A DNA stretch of 64,000 nucleotides, from contig JAFWGA010000043.1 in assembly GCA_017515325.1 (NCBI GenBank), positions 62,001-126,000 of the forward strand, in the 5' to 3' direction. This DNA comes from Blautia sp. Its GTDB lineage: Bacteria > Bacillota > Clostridia > Lachnospirales > Lachnospiraceae. The notes under the pieces were generated by a model that saw nothing but the letters and a program-made list of their open reading frames with translations, was not told where the DNA came from and searched no databases. How positions within the stretch are numbered: position 1 is the stretch's first letter; each line of letters starts with the position of its first letter. Shown in pieces: positions 37,247-61,162 of the stretch. The translations under genes were made by a program, and so were the position numbers.

Positions 37247-37312
37247 GCAAACGACAAAGTAAACTTTACTTTGTCGTTTGCTGCGCCGGATTTGCGCCGC
37301 CTCTGGCGGCAT
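37247..37312 (+). repeat. Palindromic dispersed repeat (family P, copy b)
   Basis: GCAAACGACAAAGTAAA, one base, then its exact complement (37247-37281), followed by TGCGCCGGATTTGCGCCGCC and GGCGGCAT. Nearly identical palindrome to copy a. It separates two gene scraps. Confidence 0.75.
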
Positions 37313-37320
37313 ATTTCCTA

Positions 37321-37352
37321 TTTTTGAATACAAAAGATTTTTCCAGTTTCAT
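37321..37352 (-). pseudogene. 5' end of an ATC-hydrolase-like gene (scrap)
   Basis: 37321-37369 matches 57598-57646 with two mismatches: ribosome site plus the first ~11 codons (MKLEKSFVFKN) of the tandem ATC-hydrolase-like gene. The frame then runs into repeat copy b. So a paralogue once stood here. Confidence 0.65.
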
Positions 37353-37379
37353 ATACCCACCTGTCTCACATTTATATAG

Positions 37380-37686
37380 GGAACCCTGCCCAGAGCCAGG
37401 TTACCTCCGGATGATGTGCCGAGAACGGAGATATGCTCCGCTGTATAATCTTCCAGCATCACACGGTAGGTTTCATGGATCATTTCATAGGCCTTCGTCA
37501 GAAGATACTCCGTACACAGAGGATAATAGGGAACAAACAGAACAAGTCCGGTCTTTTTGGCAAACTACAGCGCCTTCCTGACTGAGCTTTGCCTCGGCGT
37601 ACTGATCATGCCTCCTCCAATCAGGAACAGGTTCGCCCGGTCCGTTTTCTTCTTAGGATCGTTAACAGCATCTCTTGTCAATCTGT
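37380..37686 (-). pseudogene. Alpha/beta-hydrolase fragment with in-frame TAG
   Basis: Reads [16 protein letters not shown], then a TAG near 37568, then FAKKTGLVLFVPYYPLCTEY and the nucleophile elbow LGTSSGGNLALG of an esterase/lipase-type hydrolase. N- and C-termini are missing. The upstream end is fused in frame to a recombinase scrap. Confidence 0.65.
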
Positions 37687-42591: not shown

Positions 42592-44463
42592 ATGAGCTCT
42601 GTGTATCGTAATATGAAGGATATGCCTGTTCCTTCGTTTGCTTATCCCAATCGTCATGATGGAACAGTGTTCATAATTACTATTGACGACGAAGGCGGAA
42701 AACATAGAAAAACAATCGGTGCATTAACAAATTCAGTACCTGGTATAGAAAGAATGGTACCGAATAAGTATTTCAAAGAAGTTTACCAGGATCTTTGGAA
42801 CGAACAATACCCCGATAAGAAAATTCCATCTCATGAAATGAGTATTGGAATGTATGCTCTGACTTTATCTATATGTTCCGCTAACGGAATTTATTCGGAT
42901 TTAAAGGATATCTACGGCCCAATGTATGCTAACAGCATTTTGGACTATGCTATGTTTTCGGTTATGCATCGAAGCGACGTAACACAAATATATGAGCCTA
43001 CAATGCGTAAAGAAGTATTATTCGCAAACAAACTTTACAGCGATTCCTGGTATTCCCGATTCTTTTCTAAGAAGATTTCCGAGGACCAGCACCATCTGTT
43101 TCGAATCAAATGGGTTGAGCACCTGGTTAAAAATGGGTTGCAGCATGTGTGGATCAGCATTGATGGTTCCAATAATGATTGTGAGGTAAGAAACAGTTTT
43201 CTTGCTAAATACGGATTTCCTAAATCTCATAATTCCAATAAGAAAATTGTAGGCTATATGTATGCTGTTGATGCAGAAACCGGTCAGCCTGTTACATATT
43301 TTGTTTATGATGGCAGTGTTCCGGACTGCCAGGCTTTTCAGAAGATGGCAGCCTTTTTGAGGGGATTCAGCATAACGATCGATGGCATTATTCTTGACCG
43401 TGGTTTTGCAGTGGAAGAAGTCTTCCGTACAATTGCAGAAAACAAGTGGAACTACGTAATAATGCTGCCGACTGATATAAGCGGTCATACTGAAATGGTC
43501 AAAGAATATCAGGAAACAATTCGTTGGAAATCAAAGTATATGATGGATGATGAAGTCCTGTTTGGCATTTCAGATACAAAGCGATTATTCAGCTCGCATG
43601 AACGAACTTCAACCATTTGTACATATTTCGATGGGGTTAACGGCAGCATACAATCAGTACGATTATCCAAACAGATATTAGCCGCTAAAAAAAGAATTAC
43701 GAAGGCAATCAAAAATGGAAGCCGGGCATCTATAGCAAGGAATCTTCGTAAATATCTCTCCATCGAAGGAGAGGGGCCGGAGAGGAAACTGATTGAACAT
43801 CATAATGAATGGGACAAATGTATGGGGGGAAAAGGTTTCTTCTCCCTCGCAGTTTCAGATGGCATTACTCCAAACCGGGCTAACAAGCTATACAAAATGC
43901 GCGATACGTCCGAAACACAGTTTTGTATTTTGAAATCACAGGAAGGCAGCCATACATCCAGAGTACATAAAACTGAAGGAATATACAGTAAATTTGCGAT
44001 CCTGTTCATAGCAAGTATTATACGGTATGAAATCGAAAGGTCATGTAAACAATTGGATCTTGATACCAATCCTTTTATTCAGGAACTTGACCAGATTGCC
44101 CTGTTATATACAGCTGATGACAAATATGAAGCAGTAAGGAATCTTACAACTGATCAAAAAGCAGTATTCATGCTATATAATGTTGAACAGGATGACTTTG
44201 AGTATTATGCCAGAGACTTTAATGCGAGAAATAATACTGCATCACAAAATCCGGAACGAACACTTCCTGATAAGGATACTCCATTGATTATCAGTAATTC
44301 CCACAAAAGAGGAAGACTTACAAAAAGCGAATCAGAAAGCAATCAATATGAGGAACCCAGCATTAAATCCAAAGGCGGAAGGCCAAAAGGGAAAAAGGAT
44401 TCTGTCCCTAGAAAACCTCGTTCCGACAAGGGGAAAAAACGCGACCCCCGAACTAATAAATAA
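42592..44463 (+). CDS. IS4-superfamily transposase (IS1634-like)
   Basis: 623-residue DDE transposase. The first acidic residue lies in WISIDGSNND, the second in GIILDRGF, and the third in YKMRDTSETQFCILK, which fits the Y-2-R-3-E-6-K signature of the superfamily exactly. The C-terminal ~60 residues are a lysine-rich tail with AT-hook-like GGRPKGKK, likely for DNA contact. The frame is intact with its own promoter and ribosome site, so the element may be active. Confidence 0.92.
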   Translation: MSSVYRNMKDMPVPSFAYPNRHDGTVFIITIDDEGGKHRKTIGALTNSVPGIERMVPNKYFKEVYQDLWNEQYPDKKIPSHEMSIGMYALTLSICSANGIYSDLKDIYGPMYANSILDYAMFSVMHRSDVTQIYEPTMRKEVLFANKLYSDSWYSRFFSKKISEDQHHLFRIKWVEHLVKNGLQHVWISIDGSNNDCEVRNSFLAKYGFPKSHNSNKKIVGYMYAVDAETGQPVTYFVYDGSVPDCQAFQKMAAFLRGFSITIDGIILDRGFAVEEVFRTIAENKWNYVIMLPTDISGHTEMVKEYQETIRWKSKYMMDDEVLFGISDTKRLFSSHERTSTICTYFDGVNGSIQSVRLSKQILAAKKRITKAIKNGSRASIARNLRKYLSIEGEGPERKLIEHHNEWDKCMGGKGFFSLAVSDGITPNRANKLYKMRDTSETQFCILKSQEGSHTSRVHKTEGIYSKFAILFIASIIRYEIERSCKQLDLDTNPFIQELDQIALLYTADDKYEAVRNLTTDQKAVFMLYNVEQDDFEYYARDFNARNNTASQNPERTLPDKDTPLIISNSHKRGRLTKSESESNQYEEPSIKSKGGRPKGKKDSVPRKPRSDKGKKRDPRTNK

Positions 44464-52085: not shown

Positions 52086-53023
52086 GCCTGTGGCAGCCAA
52101 CCGAAGTCCGCCGTATTGAATTCCAGACCGGTGACTGTATGACCTCCACCATCGAATATGCCCATAAACAACGATGAATAGGCTTCCGAATCACTAAGGT
52201 TCCCGATCGGCTCCCACTCTGCACCGGTAAGGTCAATATCATCTGTCAGAATATAATGGGCTCCCAGGTCTTCACGTACAAGGTTTTACTGTTCCGCATT
52301 TGCAATCTGCCATGGGTCTTCTTCTGTCCCGGATCCTCCTGCAAATGAGGTCTCTTCCGTTTGCATTTCTTCCAGATTCTCTTCGCAGAAAAGGGTGATT
52401 ACATTTTTCACCATTTCTTCATCAGCATCTACCGGGAAGCCCGCAGCCAGCCAGTACGCATACGGTCCTTCGTTATATTGTGAAAGGGCATCAACGTCAC
52501 TTCCATATCGGAACTCCAGGTGGTATGTTGTGGCCGGTGTATCGGACATCATATAGAAGTATTTGAATTCACCCGCATCCTCATCTTCCGTTTCGTACAG
52601 GTAGCCATCCATCAGGCCCGCCAGTGAAAGGCCATCAACGAACCTGTACTCGTGAAAAAAAAGGAGGTCACCGTTTTCATCAGTACCGCTGATCATGCTC
52701 CCGTCAAATGTGATAGTGGACGAGCCATTGATAAACAGGCAGTCAAACTGCGCACCTCCGGATCCGTCACCGAAAGCGTCTATTGCTTCCTGACCGTATA
52801 CAGTCCCGTTGCAGGCGGATTTCAACATCTCTGCCACTTCGGGGGCAGCCTCTTCACCAACAGCAGAAATACAGGGATCAAGCCACAGCTGGTCATACTG
52901 GGAATGCTCCGATCCTTCATCATCTGTCTTTTCATACGCAAATCCCACATTCTGGCTGTCCTCTTTCACCACCTGCCACCATATCAAAACACATAGCAGC
53001 CAGCTCCTGTACATGTGCCTCAA
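52057..53023 (-). pseudogene. ZinT-like domain plus GLUG-type surface domain, broken
   Basis: Residues about 60-225 resemble ZinT/YodA zinc-binding lipocalins (FKYFYMMSDTPATTYHLEF, YGSDVDALSQ), then the linker GTEEDPWQIANAEQ, a TAA at 52286-52288, and in the same frame the GLUG-type segment HYILTDDIDLTGAEWEPIG and FDGGGHTVTGL. A frameshift follows. The 5' end is fused to an AraC fragment. Original: probably an exported metal-binding surface protein. Confidence 0.5.
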
Positions 53024-53286: not shown

Positions 53287-53406
53287 TCAATCAGCTGTTA
53301 TCCTGTCAGCCTTTTTCTGACTGTATCCCAGTACGGACACCATGTGATCGTGGAAAGATTTTCCAAATAGCACCCACATTCCCATGGGCATGCCAATATA
53401 CCTCAT
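53287..53406 (-). pseudogene. ATC-hydrolase-family N-terminal fragment
   Basis: 39 codons: MRYIGMPMGMWVLFGKSFHD and VLGYSQKKADRITAD, a typical start of the L-2-amino-thiazoline-4-carboxylate hydrolase-like family. Cut off at the AraC fragment. Its ATG overlaps the stop of the upstream scrap (ATGA). Confidence 0.6.
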
Positions 53407-53534: not shown

Positions 53535-54539
53535 TCAGTTTCCATATTTCCTGTGCAGTTCTTCCCAGGATGGCATCTGTGAACGCAGGGTATTCCATAC
53601 CTTCAGTTTTTCCAAGGGATATCCCTTCATCAGTTTCTCATAGAACAGGTCAATCTGCTCCATCTCCGAGACTGCATTCCTGCAGTGTTCGCAGGCAACC
53701 AAGTCACCGATCTTCGACTTGGACATCACCAGATAGAGAAACTGCATGGCAGTTCCACGCATCCCGTTCTCAAAGAACCGGTCGTCCCCTTCCGGATAAA
53801 TGGGAATACCTTTTGCCTTCAGGCATTCATAAGCCTCATGGGATGCAACAACCATCATCTTTCGCTGCTCCCTTGAGGAACTTCTCAGGTCGCCATCACA
53901 GATGTAAGAAAGATATGCGATCGGAAGGATGGCTGCGGGATGGCAGATCAGGTATGCCTCCATATCCCCCTGCCAGTTCAGCTTATAGGAAGTCCCGGCA
54001 AAGAGGCGGCTGACCAGCTTTTTCAGACGCGGGTCTGCTTCCCCGTGAAGCTGCCCGATGTCCATCCAGCTGCCGCCTAAGCGCTCACATACAAACCTGT
54101 CTGTTTCTTTTTTTCCTCCTGAAACCTGGAAACCGAACAGGATCTTTTTGATCCCCGGAGCATGTTCCCGGATATATGCTTCAATTTCACCCGGAGCGAG
54201 GTCATTTCCAACCAGGATCAGGAGCTTATCGTCCAATTCGCAGATCTGGGGTAATACCTCCCGGATCTTATGATATGGCATGGGAACAAATGCCACGTCG
54301 AAGGAGATTCCTTCCACTGAATTGACAGCTTTCACCCTGTCCGTTGTCGTCTTCCTCTGCAGATGATGGTATATGACCAGTCCGTTTCGGTCCAGGGACT
54401 TCGCCCGTTCCTCCCTTGCAAGGATCGTCACGTCATTCCCCGCCTTGACCAGTACATGCGCCAGATATGCTCCGATCACACCTGCCCCAAACACAAGAAC
54501 CTTGCAAATCTTCCTGTCATTTATACTATTTCGTGTCAC
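53535..54539 (-). CDS. Ketopantoate-reductase-like (ApbA/PanE) oxidoreductase
   Basis: 334 residues. The NADP-binding start CKVLVFGAGVIGAYLAHVLVK is intact, and the general build fits 2-dehydropantoate 2-reductases, but the C-terminal half diverges, including a late Cys-x2-Cys (ACEHC), so the substrate may not be ketopantoate. Start is GTG 54539 with GGGAGGTG upstream, overlapping the previous stop by GTGA, so translation is coupled to the MBL-methyltransferase fusion. Confidence 0.82.
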   Translation of the reverse strand: MTRNSINDRKICKVLVFGAGVIGAYLAHVLVKAGNDVTILAREERAKSLDRNGLVIYHHLQRKTTTDRVKAVNSVEGISFDVAFVPMPYHKIREVLPQICELDDKLLILVGNDLAPGEIEAYIREHAPGIKKILFGFQVSGGKKETDRFVCERLGGSWMDIGQLHGEADPRLKKLVSRLFAGTSYKLNWQGDMEAYLICHPAAILPIAYLSYICDGDLRSSSREQRKMMVVASHEAYECLKAKGIPIYPEGDDRFFENGMRGTAMQFLYLVMSKSKIGDLVACEHCRNAVSEMEQIDLFYEKLMKGYPLEKLKVWNTLRSQMPSWEELHRKYGN

Positions 54540-56296
54540 GGCTGCACCTCCCGGATCCGGATTTTCACGATCCTCATGTTTACGAAGCTGTCGCACATCC
54601 GAATCAGCAGCTTGTGGACAAAGCCAACGTCTTTATAGATATCCCTGTATCCGCGCATATAGCTCTTCGATGTTACCGATGCAAAATCCGGGCTCCAGCT
54701 TTTAAGCTCTTCCGGATTATCCAGAGAAAAGAAAGCCCCTACATCTGTAATTCCGGCCTCCTTCAGCCAGGTTTTCATCATCATTTTTGCGCCTCTTTTG
54801 TTGCAGCTGTCAAACACGATGGCAGCACCCGGAAACCTGTCTGCAATCCTTTGGAACAGTTTTTTCGCGTCTTCCGTTTTGAAATAGTATAACACACCTG
54901 CCGCATAAAAGACTGCCCCGCCAGACGCATCGATCTTCTCCATCCAGGATTCATCATTCAGATCGCAGCCGATATTCACTTCCCTCGCCCCGGCTGGAAG
55001 AAGTTCGTTACGGATGGCCGTTACATCCGGCATGTCAATGTTATAGCCAAGGCATCTGCCGTTGTCACATTTCCGGAAAGTATCATCCAGCCCACATCCG
55101 AGATTAACAACAGCAGCTATCGGATGATCTTCCAGGTATTCCTTTACTTCACAGCCAAGGTCATACTGCCTCTGTGCAACCTCAAGGGCTCCGAAAAGGC
55201 CCGCTGTCGTCTCCATCTTTTTCCCGTTCACGGCAAAGTCATAATCAAGCATCCCGCAAATCCGTTCCGCTTCCGAGTCCCTGAACAGCAGCGGAAAATG
55301 ATCCGAGCAAACCTTCCGGCCGTAAAGGGGAATAATCAGTGTCTCCTGAACTGTGTTCTTTTCAATGTGATATTTCTTCATGGCGTTTCCTTCCGATACC
55401 CGGTTTTTATAATCAGGACCTGCCAAAGAACCGCCTGTCTCCACCTTTACCAGTGGTATATGTCTCGCTCCTTCCTCCGTATCGTCATCTTCCACGTAGC
55501 CGTCATACGGCGCAGACGGGTCTGCGTATTTCTTTGTGAAAGGTTTGCACAGTTCATCCCTGTGAAGGAATGCAAAATCCAGGTCATCCGTCCAGCCGGT
55601 ATGTCCCGTTATGATCTTTACAGGCCGCTTTCTTGAGCGGAGATTTTCTTCCAGTTTTTCAAGGGACCGGACAGCCAGCTTATTATCCTCTGCCAGAGTG
55701 GACAGAAAACTGTACCCGCCGTCAGCGCCAAACCAGATCGTGTCGCCGGTGAACAGGTATTCGTCATCTACAAGATAAACCATATGACCCCAGGTATGGC
55801 CCGGTACCAGGATGCATTCAACCCGGATGTCCCCGATCATGACAATTTCACCGTCTTTCAGCAGAATCCTCCTGTTATCCATTTTGACCTGCGGCAGCTT
55901 ATAAAGCCCATGGATTACTTTCCGCCTGGCCTCACCTGTGAGATACCTGTTCTCAATCTCCCCGATATACACTGTCGAATCCTTAAATAGCAGTTCACTG
56001 TCCCGTTCCAGTGCGCCAACGTGATCGGTATCCTGGTGTGTGATAAAGATCTGCCGGACGGATGAGGGATCGATATCCAGCCACCTCATCTTCTCTCCCA
56101 GCCGCTCGTAGTTGTATCCCGCATCAATCATGATCGTGGTGCCATTCTTCGTGTAGAAGAAAATGTTGGCAATCCACTCACGCACGCAGGCCACGTGCTC
56201 ATCAATCCAGCCGGTATTCAACGGTTTGAAGATCGCCTTGCCGCGGAACATCCTGCTCATGGATCTCTTCTGGTTTTCTGAGTCTTTCCTTGCCAT
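54536..56296 (-). CDS. Metallo-beta-lactamase-fold hydrolase fused to LCM-type SAM methyltransferase
   Basis: 586 residues in one frame. Residues about 20-260: MBL fold with ITHQDTDHVGAL (HxDxDH variant), GHTWGH, FTGDTIWFG and TGHTGW metal ligands. Residues about 306-586: leucine-carboxyl-methyltransferase-like (PPM1/Tcmp) domain with VNLGCGLDDTFRK and YNIDMPDV. An internal ATG at 55381 has its own GGAAGGAAA site and opens the methyltransferase domain, so both a fusion and a separate methyltransferase may be made. First ATG follows AGGGGGATA. A thioester or lactone hydrolysis plus methyl-ester formation is possible; no substrate can be assigned. Confidence 0.82.
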   Translation of the reverse strand: MARKDSENQKRSMSRMFRGKAIFKPLNTGWIDEHVACVREWIANIFFYTKNGTTIMIDAGYNYERLGEKMRWLDIDPSSVRQIFITHQDTDHVGALERDSELLFKDSTVYIGEIENRYLTGEARRKVIHGLYKLPQVKMDNRRILLKDGEIVMIGDIRVECILVPGHTWGHMVYLVDDEYLFTGDTIWFGADGGYSFLSTLAEDNKLAVRSLEKLEENLRSRKRPVKIITGHTGWTDDLDFAFLHRDELCKPFTKKYADPSAPYDGYVEDDDTEEGARHIPLVKVETGGSLAGPDYKNRVSEGNAMKKYHIEKNTVQETLIIPLYGRKVCSDHFPLLFRDSEAERICGMLDYDFAVNGKKMETTAGLFGALEVAQRQYDLGCEVKEYLEDHPIAAVVNLGCGLDDTFRKCDNGRCLGYNIDMPDVTAIRNELLPAGAREVNIGCDLNDESWMEKIDASGGAVFYAAGVLYYFKTEDAKKLFQRIADRFPGAAIVFDSCNKRGAKMMMKTWLKEAGITDVGAFFSLDNPEELKSWSPDFASVTSKSYMRGYRDIYKDVGFVHKLLIRMCDSFVNMRIVKIRIREVQP

Positions 56297-56429
56297 GCCC
56301 GTATCCCCCTAGCGTCTTTTTATTACGTTCTGATCGCCTTTTCCGTGTCCATGTGATCACCTTCTTACATCCGCTGCGTCTTCCCTGTTCGTTCAAATGC
56401 TTTTTCTTCGTTTTCTGGGATCTCCAGCA

Positions 56430-57629
56430 TCAGTCTTTTGTCTGCACTTTCCGGAGGTAGAAATCACAGCGTTTTGCACCTTTGCCGAGCGTACCGGTTC
56501 TCTCAAACTTCAGCCCCGGCAGGTTCCCGTAGACCCGTTCGTCATTATCACAGAATATCTTTGTGAGTTCAGGGCAGCCCAGATCCGTCATATACCGCCA
56601 ATATGGGCAGGAAACGATATCCATCCGGTATTCACCTTTTTTCTTCGGATAAAAAACATTCTTAAACCCATTACCGGGTCCGAATATCTTCTTTGTCATC
56701 GGATCCCACATGCTGACGAACAGGCTGCTCATTCCCGGTACTTTCATCAGCTTCTCCAGCTTACGTGCGATTCCGGCGCAGCCGGTTATTGCGGCATTCT
56801 CTATAACCGAAAATGCAGTCTTCTCCCCAAGCTCATCCTTGATGGTCAGATAGATTGCCGCAGCAGGGAATATTCTATCCGTGTGAGGCTGCAGACCCTT
56901 TGGAAGCGCACCATATTTGTCCTGGATTTCGTTCAGCCGTGCCGTTGCCTTCTGCCACAACGCATCGCTGCGCGGAGTCTGCCTGTCCAGTTCCGCTTTG
57001 ATGGTACCCTTCTTTGCCATAAGTTTTTCGGCTCCGGTCATCTTCTTATCCCTTGAATCTCTAAGCCGGTAGTCACAACAATCATCGCCTTCCGCGACGG
57101 ATTTTGTCCGGGTATAGTCGATCCCCCGAAAACCATTCATGTATTCCTTATCCATGCAGCAGATCATCTGCACGGCCTCGGGCGTCCCCAGTTCCTTCGC
57201 CTTCTCATACAGCGGGCAGCTGACCACATCCATTGAGCATAGATGCTCCGTAACGGTAACGTTTTTACAATCGTAACCACTGCTCAATTTACCGGAGATC
57301 CTGTCCATATTCTTCCACATAAGTGTCGGAACGCCGGGAAGCGCCGTCATTCTCCGGAACACTTTTTTCATCCGGAGACCGGTTTCTGTTCCGTAGTTCC
57401 TTGTTATCTCCAGCGCTTTCCCCGGGAAATAATGCTCGATTGCCCTATAGATCGCAACTGCCGGGAATACATAAGACCGGCTTGTTTTGTCGGCATCCGG
57501 TTCAGAGGATTCCAGTTTTTTAAGCTGCGCATTTGCATATCGGAAAATAGAAGCGGCCTTTTTCTCACCATATTTTTCTTCCAAATCCGTTTTAAGCTTT
57601 TTGAATACAAAAGATTTTTCCAGTTTCAT
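56430..57629 (-). CDS. Tandem ATC-hydrolase-like protein (two domains)
   Basis: 399 residues holding two copies, about 200 each, of the L-2-amino-thiazoline-4-carboxylic acid hydrolase-like domain. Each ends with the cysteine pattern: MDVVSCPLYEKAKELG, CCMDKEY and GDDCCDYRL in the first; MDIVSCPYWRYMTDLG, FCDNDER and AKRCDFYL in the second. Single-domain members are about 200-230 residues. The founding enzyme opens the thiazoline ring on the way to L-cysteine; the job of this clostridial branch is unknown. ATG 57629 follows AGGTGGGC. Its 5' end is duplicated at 37321-37369. Confidence 0.75.
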   Translation of the reverse strand: MKLEKSFVFKKLKTDLEEKYGEKKAASIFRYANAQLKKLESSEPDADKTSRSYVFPAVAIYRAIEHYFPGKALEITRNYGTETGLRMKKVFRRMTALPGVPTLMWKNMDRISGKLSSGYDCKNVTVTEHLCSMDVVSCPLYEKAKELGTPEAVQMICCMDKEYMNGFRGIDYTRTKSVAEGDDCCDYRLRDSRDKKMTGAEKLMAKKGTIKAELDRQTPRSDALWQKATARLNEIQDKYGALPKGLQPHTDRIFPAAAIYLTIKDELGEKTAFSVIENAAITGCAGIARKLEKLMKVPGMSSLFVSMWDPMTKKIFGPGNGFKNVFYPKKKGEYRMDIVSCPYWRYMTDLGCPELTKIFCDNDERVYGNLPGLKFERTGTLGKGAKRCDFYLRKVQTKD

Positions 57630-57678
57630 ATGCCCACCTGTTTCACAACCGTAATTGCCACCCCTCTTTAGCACCGTG

Positions 57679-58359
57679 TCATTTTCTGCAGCGGAAACAG
57701 GCGATGCCTTCTACTGATGTGACCTTTGCTTTTGTATACATCTTTTCCAGTCGCTCCCGGAGGCTTTGCTCCGTTTCATACGGCGGCGTGAAGTATCCTT
57801 TGGGCTGGTACAGATGATTGATCATCCAGTCCGTCCTTCCGCATCCGCCCCGGACATAAAAGCATCCGCAGAACGTACCTCCTTTCTTCAGGACGCGGAA
57901 GGTTTCCCGGTAGGCAGCCTCCTTATCCGGGAATGCGTGGAACCCGTTCAGGGAAAGCATCACATCGAATGTCCCGTCTTCAAAAGGCAATGCGCTCACG
58001 TCTCCCTGCAAGAAGGTGATATTCCGGATTCCGACGGTTTCCGCCTTGGCCTGCGCGGCATGCATCATGTCCACGGAATAATCGAGGCAGGTGATATCTG
58101 CCTCCGGCAGTTCCTTATAGACCGGCATGCTCAGGACTCCCGTCCCAACCGGAACTTCCAGCAGCTTTCCTTTGAAGCCCTCCGGCACGCCGGACAGCGC
58201 CCGCTCCAGGTAACGCAGGTTCTTTTTCCCGTCCATATTCCACACCAGGCGGCAGATCACCTTCCCGGGCAGCGTGGAATACGTCATCATTCCATCATAG
58301 AAGCTGGCGTTGTTTCCGGTCAGCCTGTATGCATTTCTGATTTGGTCTCTCCTTGTCAT
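57679..58359 (-). CDS. Class I SAM-dependent methyltransferase
   Basis: 226 residues, Rossmann-fold methyltransferase of the Methyltransf_11 type: SAM loop KLLEVPVGTGVLSMPVYK, LDYSVDMM acid turn, GDVSALPFEDGTFDVMLSLNGFHAF and RVLKKGGTF. The C-terminus ends with two cysteines (FRCRK). Acts on a small molecule, unknown. It starts 134 nt below the broken ATC-hydrolase-like gene and ends 49 nt above the tandem one. Confidence 0.88.
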   Translation of the reverse strand: MTRRDQIRNAYRLTGNNASFYDGMMTYSTLPGKVICRLVWNMDGKKNLRYLERALSGVPEGFKGKLLEVPVGTGVLSMPVYKELPEADITCLDYSVDMMHAAQAKAETVGIRNITFLQGDVSALPFEDGTFDVMLSLNGFHAFPDKEAAYRETFRVLKKGGTFCGCFYVRGGCGRTDWMINHLYQPKGYFTPPYETEQSLRERLEKMYTKAKVTSVEGIACFRCRK

Positions 58360-58493
58360 GATTTAATTCCTCACATCATTACCTTTCCCACCACTATGTG
58401 TCTCCTCCTTCATGGTGCGTATCATCATGTCCCATCCGTCTCTCCCTTCCCTGCAGACTGGGAATACCGGGTAACAATGGAACATACCGTCTC

Positions 58494-58862
58494 CTACATC
58501 ATCAGCCAGTCTCCGCCGCCATAACACAGACATACGAGGATAAGCCACATGTCAAAGGAACGGTTCAGATTGAATACCCTGCCAAGCTTCGTAAACGGAG
58601 ACATGAACAGGTTCTACACAAAGCCTTCCAGTTTCGATATCGGCGGCTGATCCGGTAACGCAGCATACAGAGCGAAAACCAGCATTCCTCCGTAAATTGC
58701 GTTTGCGTGCCCGTTTTTCTTACCGCCGTAGTCGGGAACTTCAGCAAGCCAGGAAGCATAGATCTGTGCTGTTTTCTGCCAGATGGCATCCGCTCCGGAG
58801 CCATACCGATCAGCCAGCCACTGCCTGATTTTTTCGCAGTATTGTAATTCTTCAAGTTCCAT
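58494..58862 (-). pseudogene. ATC-hydrolase-like gene with in-frame TAG, 3' truncated
   Basis: Begins MELEELQYCEKIRQWLADRY, runs to PPISKLEGFV, hits TAG at 58614-58616, then continues in frame as NLFMSPFTKLGRVFNLNRSF, the expected next segment. Similarity ends near 58536; the cysteine-bearing C-terminus is missing. The 58363-58493 stretch shows no gene. Confidence 0.65.
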
Positions 58863-58899
58863 TTTCCAAATCATCCTCTTTCGTTCCGACACCGACAAT

Positions 58900-59577
58900 T
58901 CAGGATTCAGCGCGCACCTTTCCTGACATTACCAACAGTCCGCTCATCATCCAAAGGTTCCCGATGCTGATCCAGCCGGTCGCCAGCGCATTGGTCAGCC
59001 CGTAGTCCCCGATGAGGCGCATCAATACTGCCCAAACCAGGCCGAACAGCACGGAAAATACCCAGCACCAGTGTGGCAGAGGTGTGTGTCCGTGTGAAAA
59101 AACTCTGATCTGGACGATTGCGGTAAGAAGGAAAAAGACCATGAAAATGATTGTTGCAGGAATCAGGAACCACCCAACCCAGCGTATTATTTCTTCTGCC
59201 GGTAGGCGTTTCAGAAGGTACACTGCCATACAGCACGGAACATGGACTCCGCAGCCTCCGAAGGCAAGGCAGCCAATAATACCAGCGCGATAGGCGTGGG
59301 CATCTTTCTCTGAATACGGTTTGATCATCCGGTAGATTGCAAACCAGCAGAGGCATTCGACGGGAATACCAATTAGCCCAAGCAGCGCGGAGGCGATTAT
59401 CCTGCCGTCAGATACTGACAGATAACGTGACAACATCGCGGGCAGTTCTGTGACAGAAGGATCAGCCACGCCCCAGCCAAGCAGCATGTCACCGGCTAGC
59501 ACCAGAAGTGATGCTAAGATACCGAGTTTCAGAAGATGCTGTATGCGCGGCCAGTCAAAGATCTGTTTCTCATTCAT
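58900..59577 (-). CDS. Six-helix membrane protein (DUF6796-like)
   Basis: 225 residues with about six hydrophobic segments (first at 17-36, LLKLGILASLLVLAGDMLLG; last at 205-220). The Cys-rich loop GGCGVHVPCC and PHWCWVFSVLFG are notable. No catalytic motif recognised. It lies 16 nt below a methyltransferase gene and 37 nt above an ATC-hydrolase-like gene, so it belongs to the same transcript. Confidence 0.75.
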   Translation of the reverse strand: MNEKQIFDWPRIQHLLKLGILASLLVLAGDMLLGWGVADPSVTELPAMLSRYLSVSDGRIIASALLGLIGIPVECLCWFAIYRMIKPYSEKDAHAYRAGIIGCLAFGGCGVHVPCCMAVYLLKRLPAEEIIRWVGWFLIPATIIFMVFFLLTAIVQIRVFSHGHTPLPHWCWVFSVLFGLVWAVLMRLIGDYGLTNALATGWISIGNLWMMSGLLVMSGKVRAES

Positions 59578-59593
59578 ACTGTCATTTTCCCTC

Positions 59594-60217
59594 TTACTTC
59601 TGTGCTATTACCGTGATCCACGGTTTTGTTTTATGATGGCCTGATTTAACCTTGGAAAATCCGGCATTCATTAATGCAGACTCAATCTCTTCCACGGTAT
59701 GACATTTCATCCCGTCAATGATCTTCTCAAACTTCAGCCCAGTTGCATCAGTGCCGTCGGATTCGTTGCAGATCAGGAAATACCCGCCTGGTTTCAGCAC
59801 TTTTGCAACCTGCCCGAAGCACTTTTCCAATCCGGGCCAGAAATAGATTGTCTCAAAGGCAGTGGCAAGGTCATATTTTCCTTCAGGTAAATGCAGGTCT
59901 GAAACATCGCCCTGCAAGACCTTGCAGCGCCCTGCTGTGATCATGTCCCGGTTATACTCCCTTGCCTTTGCCACGGAAAGATCGGAATAATCGACTGCCG
60001 TCACGTTTGCATCCGGATATTTTTTCAGCAACTCCCCGGCATTCCGTCCCCCGCCGCAGCCAAGGTCGACCAGTTCTGACGCTCTGACTGGCGGAAGATA
60101 TGAGAAGCCCCAGTCCGCCATCTCTGCGTGCCCTGAGTTCATGCCGCTTAGCATCATCTTTCCCAGAAAGCCTTCCGGCTTCCTCGTCTGGCTTACAAAA
60201 CTCTTAAACAGTCCCAT
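59594..60217 (-). CDS. Class I SAM-dependent methyltransferase
   Basis: 207 residues: ELVDLGCGGGRNAGELLKKY SAM loop, VTAVDYSDLSVAKA, GDVSDLHLPEGKYDLATAFE and VLKPGGYFLICNESDG. Start ATG 60217 after GGAAGGAGAG; an upstream in-frame ATG at 60250 lacks a site. First intact gene of the 53.5-60.2 kb run. Substrate unknown. Confidence 0.9.
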   Translation of the reverse strand: MGLFKSFVSQTRKPEGFLGKMMLSGMNSGHAEMADWGFSYLPPVRASELVDLGCGGGRNAGELLKKYPDANVTAVDYSDLSVAKAREYNRDMITAGRCKVLQGDVSDLHLPEGKYDLATAFETIYFWPGLEKCFGQVAKVLKPGGYFLICNESDGTDATGLKFEKIIDGMKCHTVEEIESALMNAGFSKVKSGHHKTKPWITVIAQK

Positions 60218-60409: not shown

Positions 60410-60601
60410 TTATGTTCTTTCCGATACAACAAGTGACAGGCCGAATAAGGCCTGTCCGGCCCAGTGACAGGCTCCAAACGTACCGTCATCATGGACACAG
60501 GGACCTAAAAAGGTCCGGACACCCACGGCAGTAAACAAAGCCAGGATGAGTACGATGATTGCCGGAGCAGCACTGCTTTTCCTGTTTCCCGTGTTATCCA
60601 T
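60410..60601 (-). pseudogene. DUF4418 membrane protein, truncated
   Basis: 63 codons: one hydrophobic segment, then GVRTFLGPCVHDDGTFGACH and WAGQALFG, typical of the first third of DUF4418 proteins. A stop follows LVVSERT. Hydrophobic coding-like remains in another frame extend to about 60255. GGAGGAAAAC precedes the start. Confidence 0.65.
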
Positions 60602-60763
60602 TTTTGTTTTCCTCCACACACTATCAAGGAACTGCCCCCTCCCTTCGCTTAGCGACCCTCTCCGGTCGTCGATTAGTGGCAGAAAGGCTCCTGTTAATTG
60701 TTAGTTTGCTCTAACCTAAGGGTAAAAAAATAACATGTCCCAGATCTTTTGTTTGATAGCGGA

Positions 60764-60979
60764 TTATACTCTGGCAGATTTCGGTTTTGGTCCGGACTTC
60801 TGCTTTTCCGGTTTGACAGCACTTTCCGGTATTGCCCACGCTCTTCCCAGCCGTTCTGCTCCCAGTACACGTCCGTCCCGGACATATTGGTTCACCCATC
60901 GTTTCGAAACGCCCCACTTGTCTGCTGTTTCCTGTACGGATAGATAGCCTTTCAAAACTCCACTTCTTTCTGTCTTCAA
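60764..60979 (-). CDS. Excisionase-like helix-turn-helix protein
   Basis: 71 residues: GYLSVQETADKWGVSKRWVN, then YVRDGRVLGAERLGRAWAIP, the winged-helix pattern of Xis/MerR-type DNA-binding proteins, with a basic tail. Start is probably TTG 60979 (or TTG 60958); no strong ribosome site. Such proteins accompany recombinases, and a recombinase remnant lies 184 nt upstream. Confidence 0.75.
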   Translation of the reverse strand: MKTERSGVLKGYLSVQETADKWGVSKRWVNQYVRDGRVLGAERLGRAWAIPESAVKPEKQKSGPKPKSARV

Positions 60980-61162
60980 TCATAACTGGGCATCGACTTG
61001 ACGCCCACAACGTGGTTAGTCTTATCGAACTATTATTATATACCACTTCCCGCAGATAACAAGAGGCAAATTGCATAATTTCATAAAAAAACAAAGAAGC
61101 CGCCGTCAGGGCAGCCCTCATAAGAAAGCTTTATAGTATTCAGGAATGGCATGATCTTCGGG

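Follow-up and report, generated by a model that had tools for sequence, protein, structure and literature searches.

A partly decayed enzyme cluster behind a DtxR-like box in Blautia sp. as a probable remnant of an iron-regulated module

Here we analyse a run of genes in a 64,000-nucleotide stretch of the Blautia sp. contig JAFWGA010000043.1 (positions 62,001 to 126,000), hereafter called the window, in which all the named coding units occupy the minus strand from 53535 to 60217, where an earlier reading made from the letters alone (the sequence-only reading) had placed them. The run encodes two S-adenosylmethionine (SAM) methyltransferases (MT1 and MT2), a DUF6796 membrane protein, PF14196-type proteins (named for "ATC hydrolase", hence ATC), one open reading frame (ORF) that joins an MBL domain to an LCM-type methyltransferase, and a ketopantoate-reductase-like enzyme (KPR). 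It is best read, from its sequence and that of its relatives, as a partly decayed copy of a modular and often reshuffled cluster of Lachnospiraceae and other rumen and gut Clostridia. We consider it probable that this decaying copy stems from an iron-regulated module acting on a putative small iron ligand, because the cluster sits behind a box of the iron-regulator type and travels with iron transport genes in its relatives. The sequence-only reading, which had proposed a common pathway for a small carboxylated and possibly sulfur-containing compound, is partly supported by our results, the DtxR-type operator and the metal-transport partners, which are the main clue, having been overlooked in it.

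A palindromic box of the DtxR type in the cluster and its relatives

The MBL-LCM protein was used to scan a genome collection, in which 348 relatives were confirmed and the best 80 loci, which lean to close relatives, were kept (L001-L003 are excluded from the locus set). By their titles these loci come mostly from metagenome-assembled genomes of rumen and gut Clostridia, and loci of other genomes were re-mapped with tblastn. Genes were called with a home-made caller whose codon score was trained on tblastn hits, so that family counts are approximate.

An unguided count of 5-base palindromes over 240 intergenic regions placed GTTAG-N6-CTAAC top by far, with occurrences in 43 loci; a coding control of five times the length had none. 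The exact box occurs at 110 sites in 54 of the 80 loci (among the 63 loci that measure 8 kb or more, 50 carry it and 13 do not), while the other 12 spacings between 0 and 12 gave 0-3 sites, 29 permuted palindromes gave a mean of 0.5 and a maximum of 5, and the reversed word gave 0. None of the 110 sites falls inside a called ORF, though 87% of the bases are coding, and for 107 of them a gene starts no further than 400 bp away. The core TTAG-N6-CTAA is found at 145 sites, again never in ORFs; the outer G/C is present at 110 of these, a conservation that reflects both how the sites were chosen and a preference for these bases, and the inner G/C is not conserved. This core has the same half-sites and spacing as the single-dimer consensus of IdeR/DtxR, given as TTAGGNNNNCCTAA in an excerpt of PMC8464063. 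The 16-base box itself was not found in print in a literature search by listings, and an excerpt of a paper on TroR (PMC2628430) shows no matching box.

The genes behind the boxes in the 80 loci encode MBL proteins, methyltransferases, hydrolases, ABC transporter halves and TetR regulators, and also include feoA, feoB, dtxR and DUF2325/DUF3793 genes. Three genomes (G001, of the same genus as the host, G004 and G281) hold 31 exact sites together, against 4, 1 and 2 for the reversed control; 29 of the 31 lie in stretches that were inspected, the remaining two being in G004. There the box leads feoAB, zip, a FecCD importer with its binding protein, dtxR and ABC pairs, as well as KPR-, LCM-, MT- and hydrolase-led operons, and unexpectedly it also precedes enolase in all three genomes; other boxes among the 29, in L162/L179, L164, L166, L169, L175 and L176 and one in L134, have no clear iron gene behind them. 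Nine further stretches chosen by the box have it before feo, dtxR, zip, DUF3793/flavodoxin, ABC halves, FecCD-like genes (by eye) and enolase. On a wider scale, 106 of 120 sampled genomes of the family have the box followed by an ATG at 20-50 bp, with 772 matches in all; the reversed box gave 151 matches in 70 of the 120 genomes, several ATGs behind one box being counted repeatedly in both. The similarity with the DtxR/IdeR regulon hence comprises the TTAG/CTAA half-sites, the 6-base spacing and the presence of the box on feo, siderophore-importer and dtxR genes. The difference is that the boxes here form separate pairs (25 of them, spaced 30-132 bp) rather than overlapping sites, and binding is predicted from sequence.

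As a separate observation, enolase carries a DtxR-like box in L163, L174, L178, L182, L184 and L185, from six related genomes (the Pfam check covers L163), hinting that glycolysis may be tied to metal status in these bacteria. A stretch of about 19 kb in another genome (G478:C7:124984-144306, comprising L182 and L183) has nine exact boxes before flavodoxin, ZIP, enolase, DtxR, Feo and other genes and may be a hot spot of iron regulation.

Metal-transport partners and neighbourhood in relatives

Family names were taken from Pfam on one example per ORF cluster, whereas the labels MBL, MT, LCM, KPR, ATCb and TetR were assigned by eye or from resemblance to the window, and both the family and the same-strand counts cover the ORFs falling in labelled clusters. 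At least one metal-related family is present in 42 of the 80 loci and none in 38: ZIP in 22, HMA in 20, DUF3793 in 16, P-type ATPase in 10, DUF6110 and flavodoxin in 9 each, DtxR in 6, and FeoA/FeoB and DUF2325 in 4 each. One heavy-metal P-type ATPase of these loci scores over the cut-off of TIGR01525. DUF6110 is nearly single copy (21 proteins over cut-off in 20 of 40 genomes), and 8 copies lie within MBL loci by tblastn, where by our estimate chance would place about 0.15 in all, taking neighbourhoods of 20 kb and genomes of about 2.8 Mb. In an excerpt of PMC9374683, DUF6110 is described as typically encoded with P1B6-ATPases. The closeness of HMA, DUF6110 and P-type ATPase genes in some related loci recalls the ferrosome (fez) and P1B6-ATPase-DUF6110 modules; unlike in those modules, the window operon lacks these genes, the likeness being one of gene families and any identity putative.

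ABC half-transporters occur in 25 of the 80 loci. Searched against PDB sequences, the halves from L126 and L187 matched 6p6i chain A, which we take to be YbtP (its partner is labelled YbtQ), at 9e-84 and 1e-92, and IrtA at 4e-75 and 1e-85; these two are the best bacterial half-transporters among the matches shown, above MsbA, and eukaryotic ABCB proteins score higher. NCBIfam ranks MsbA-type models first for these halves, below cut-off. They thus resemble YbtPQ/IrtAB in being paired half-transporters of exporter fold whose top-ranked bacterial PDB sequences are those proteins; they differ in being far relatives with methyltransferases and hydrolases as neighbours, and a likeness of this kind does not fix direction or cargo.

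The enzymes themselves recur together. In 69 of the 80 loci the MBL gene is accompanied by two or more other set families, in varying order, and 466 of 473 set genes share its strand. Methyltransferases are found in 65 MBL loci, PF14196 proteins form two ORF clusters (53 and 29 loci), LCM occurs in 34 and KPR in 12, alpha/beta hydrolase clusters in 32, 15 and 8, the small membrane proteins TM3, TM7 and TM14 in 35, 29 and 13, and DUF6796 in 16 and 11. The MBL motif HxDxDH is kept by all 76 relatives that reach 270 aa, out of 78 MBL ORFs. Loci were also seeded independently with DUF6796, which 23 of 295 genomes of the order carry above cut-off. Of the 25 loci so obtained (22 genomes), 17 hold one or more set members or ABC/metal partners and 8 hold none counted, L152 being left uncounted with a 34% methyltransferase as its sole match. 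Among the 17, L155 qualifies via a P-type ATPase, L157 mainly through one hydrolase, and L139, L154 and L159 by ABC/ATPase genes only. The sequence-only reading had staked its shared pathway on homologues keeping company in other genomes, which they do in most of the 80 loci; the recurring neighbourhood (69 of 80, and 17 of 25 from DUF6796) is the part of that proposal that stands, the sulfur-containing carboxylate as substrate being the part that does not. It had also known of no described pathway with this set, and a literature search likewise found no description.

Boxes and cluster copies in the host genome

Two boxes (no strand assigned) lie upstream of the window operon:

60700..60715: exact box GTTAG-N6-CTAAC; downstream of it follow a DUF4418-like relic at about 80-100 bp and MT1 at about 480 bp
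61015..61030: another box, with one mismatch, immediately downstream of a TATAATAATA stretch

Throughout the host genome (G000, 3.3 Mb) there are 3 exact boxes, and 14 sites when up to one mismatch is allowed, against 1 and 60 for the reversed control. The one-mismatch list taken alone is thus weak, and it is the placement that speaks for the boxes, 5 of the 14 sites being at the window operon or at a second copy of the cluster on contig C45. This second copy, more eroded than the window operon, consists of ATC, an LCM tail, an MBL head, ATC tail pieces, a TetR tail, two ABC halves, HMA, a ZIP tail, a methyltransferase tail and an ATPase tail, and both copies keep boxes. With a third scrap in the window (37310..37654, minus strand), in which a piece of the alpha/beta hydrolase ABH13 runs into the opening bases of the tandem-ATC gene, the host genome holds three worn copies or pieces of the cluster. 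Weighing against the iron-regulated module is the fact that the two feoB operons of the host are without a box at up to one mismatch. No box was found in the stretch (L189) around the host DtxR-family gene at C40:130167. In G001 the box is present on known iron genes.

The cluster is patchy in the genus, an MBL match of at least 65% identity being found in 5 of 37 genomes (G000, G002, G021, G035 and G036), which suggests gain and loss. Horizontal transfer can be argued because of this patchiness and is not supported by base composition, GC content at third codon positions being 0.56-0.69 in the operon and 0.58-0.69 in four host genes.

Composition, constraint and scars of the window operon

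The features of the run, all on the minus strand, are as follows:

60764..60979: small ORF flanked by the two boxes, excisionase-like with a helix-turn-helix (PF12728, 6.3e-08; TIGR01764 slightly under cut-off)
60410..60619: DUF4418 gene relic (PF14387, 24.9 bits against a cut-off of 27), with an in-frame stop and then a short membrane stretch
59594..60217: MT1, class I SAM methyltransferase (PF08241/PF13649); ATG at 60217, longest ORF from 60250
58900..59577: DUF6796 integral membrane protein (PF20599, E 9.6e-62)
58539..58862: ATC head, residues 1-109 of 231 of a PF14196-type gene (tblastn, 60% identity)
58387..58539: ABH13 hydrolase tail, residues 253-304, joined to the ATC head (tblastn, 59% identity)
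57679..58359: MT2, UbiE-like SAM methyltransferase (PF13649, 1.1e-21)
56430..57629: tandem PF14196 protein, two PF14196 stretches (whole-protein E 4.1e-39)
55437..56296: MBL domain (PF00753, 2.9e-15), HQDTDH motif
55382..55436: MBL-LCM junction ending GPDYKNRVSEGNA, remnant of a methyltransferase head (MKPDYKNW...)
54536..55381: LCM-type methyltransferase (PF04072, 5.9e-10), its own start codon and a purine-rich stretch resembling a ribosome site kept
53535..54539: KPR, NAD(P) enzyme of the ApbA type (PF02558, 3.5e-11), GTGA overlap with LCM
53293..53406: relic downstream of KPR, head of another ATC gene (tblastn, 61% identity over 38 residues)

The GTGA overlap that had been reported was confirmed, the KPR-like start GTG at 54539 overlapping the upstream TGA; the ORF list has KPR begin further upstream, at a GTG (54596) that falls within the LCM part. 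When each part was compared with 4 relatives (two of the MBL relatives being the same record, and synonymous sites being near saturation), ratios of nonsynonymous to synonymous change (pN/pS) were 0.09-0.12 for MBL, 0.17-0.27 for LCM, DUF6796, MT1, MT2 and ATC (MT1 0.17-0.22, DUF6796 0.17-0.21, MT2 0.21-0.24) and 0.42-0.62 for KPR. Judged by these substitutions, the retained operon genes show constraint.

Two parts of the run look like deletion scars. In many relatives a methyltransferase starting MKPDYKNW or similar lies directly downstream of MBL, whereas in the single window ORF (54536-56296, minus strand) the MBL end passes through GPDYKNRVSEGNA into the LCM start MKKYHIEK, the methyltransferase body being missing. 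The MBL-LCM ORF thus looks like a scar because its junction holds the first residues of the methyltransferase that normally follows MBL. The fusion noticed by the sequence-only reading is real in that both domains stand in one ORF, and we rejected it as a conserved bifunctional enzyme given the methyltransferase head at the junction and the fact that MBL and LCM share one open frame in 0 of the 80 loci. The second probable scar is the gene first described as a broken ATC, since an ATC head is joined in it to a hydrolase tail: the ATC piece is indeed there, and the relic, with no Pfam match of its own, extends from about 58387 to 58862.

The tandem ATC gene was correctly described as two PF14196 stretches in one protein (135.1 bits, curated cut-off 28.1). 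ATG 57629 is its likely start and the second domain opens with its own methionine (57041). It looks like the product of a lost stop: single-domain homologues exist in relatives, L063 and L078 have two ATC genes consecutive in one frame with a stop in between, and across the 80 loci we found neither an open frame spanning two ATC genes nor, outside the window, a called ORF of more than 300 aa with PF14196-like matches.

Neighbouring genes have also merged in frame elsewhere, in ten frames of 9 of the 80 loci:

MBL-MT: L006, L013, L025, L027, L034, L040
MT-MBL: L045
LCM-MT: L040
ABH13-MT: L007
ATC-DUF6796: L082

The cluster therefore seems prone to gene fusion and, such fusions of neighbours being common in it, the window may encode a working fused MBL-LCM protein, or both products may be made.

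PF14196 proteins and fold searches

The PF14196 paralogues of these clusters diverge to 14% identity and keep three conserved cysteines. In an excerpt of PMC5847659 the family is described as having three conserved cysteines and a domain similar to V4R and HNOB. We compared an AlphaFold2 model of the second ATC domain by VIA-align and found it to resemble, among the families listed, the Bet3, H-NOX and V4R domains at modest Z. These proteins thus resemble L-ATC hydrolase in matching its family above cut-off and in the three cysteines; they differ in that many clusters hold several divergent paralogues and in that the model resembles sensor domains, the activity being predicted from the family. 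Alignment profiles of ATC and DUF6796 gave nothing useful against sequences of solved structures, and LCM had no PDB sequence match at 0.001.

An iron-ligand module and its alternatives

To our knowledge, iron acquisition by strict gut anaerobes is poorly known. In the iron-regulated module that we propose, a DtxR-family repressor loaded with Fe(II) would keep the operon off, and the cluster would be made when iron is scarce. Less certainly, the paired ABC half-transporters, whose nearest relatives among solved bacterial half-transporters are YbtP/YbtQ and IrtA, may move a small metal ligand, perhaps lipophilic or aromatic; the V4R/H-NOX-like ATC proteins could bind it; the methyltransferases, LCM enzyme, esterases, MBL hydrolase and reductase could modify or dismantle it; and FeoB, ZIP and P-type ATPase could handle the released metal. 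The window operon differs from classical siderophore biosynthesis in having neither a non-ribosomal peptide synthetase (NRPS) nor an NRPS-independent siderophore (NIS) synthetase among its genes by Pfam. Among 40 related genomes, some of them incomplete, IucA/IucC was found in none and condensation domains were found in 21 and not in 19; the 80 loci have 4 called ORFs of more than 900 aa, and a condensation-motif scan of these loci gave 11 frames, mostly opposite to the MBL strand. A bolder version, which we judge rather unlikely, is that of an undescribed metallophore system of gut and rumen Clostridia that dispenses with assembly lines: a DtxR-controlled and recombining kit of methyltransferases, V4R-fold ligand-binding proteins, esterases, an HxDxDH metallohydrolase and a KPR-like reductase would make or recycle lipophilic iron ligands, with YbtPQ/IrtAB-like import and a ferrosome-like store.

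Among the alternatives, the one that survives best, unlikely as we judge it, is an iron-sparing remodelling of membranes, in which the enzymes would alter a membrane lipid or a quinone-like compound at low iron and no chelator would be involved. The DYKNW-family methyltransferases have a hydrophobic N-terminal stretch, TM3, TM7 and TM14 recur as does DUF6796, and enolase, a non-transport gene, is also boxed; however, in many loci the enzymes alternate with ABC pairs, ZIP, HMA, P-type ATPase and Feo, which suggests traffic of metal or ligand beyond any lipid chemistry. Somewhat less likely still is a manganese or general divalent-metal regulon, with an MntR-like box and a cluster serving manganese or zinc, which overlaps with the iron-ligand module and differs from it in the metal alone. 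It would fit the DtxR-family protein of L013, whose best scores are with MntR models, below cut-off, and the frequency of ZIP carriers, but the box before feoA/feoB, flavodoxin/DUF3793 and FecCD siderophore-type importers points to iron.

We regard as improbable a detoxification of xenobiotics or antibiotics by TetR-controlled efflux and modifying enzymes, with the box as TetR operator. TetR genes do adjoin ABC pairs and boxes (L010, L017, L025 and L173), and the ABC halves resemble multidrug exporters; yet the box is present in most sampled genomes of the family, it stands on feo/dtxR genes with no adjacent TetR (L165, L172 and L183), and its core matches the DtxR site. Mere hitch-hiking in a recombination-prone island that gathers unrelated genes, as the strong shuffling of gene order and the erosion of both host copies might suggest, is very improbable given the shared strand and the constrained substitutions of six of the seven parts (pN/pS 0.09-0.27), KPR being the seventh.

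Least credible of all is the pathway of the sequence-only reading, in which a sulfur-containing carboxylate such as aminothiazoline carboxylate would be built or broken, ending in cysteine. It rests on the PF14196 name, which comes from L-ATC hydrolase, and LCM and KPR families act on carboxylates; we rejected it as the main explanation since no carbamoyl-cysteine hydrolase or other cysteine gene is among the 20 recurring families that the Pfam scan covered (non-recurring ORFs lying outside it), the PF14196 paralogues are highly divergent with a model resembling Bet3, H-NOX and V4R, and the regulatory signal is of the metal type.

Under the iron-regulated module, the box would mark an iron regulon across most sampled genera of one family, and together with the recurring enzyme kit it offers directly testable candidates. 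DUF6796, DUF3793, the PF14196 paralogues and the small membrane proteins become probable iron-response genes because of the box and the recurring kit behind it.

Other observations

A small listed ORF contains the third exact box of the host genome (G000:C5:51477, positions 6478-6493 of L161). About 100 bp after the box comes a PF02613 (nitrate reductase delta-like) gene and, behind that gene, a long ORF whose start is twin-arginine-like. Elsewhere in the window, positions 52286-53023 hold a pseudogene-like piece that ends in FAGGSGTEEDPWQIANAEQ, a similar FAGGSGTAEDPWQI stretch being present in L019, and positions 42592-44463 hold a long ORF (623 aa) that is transposase-like by eye.

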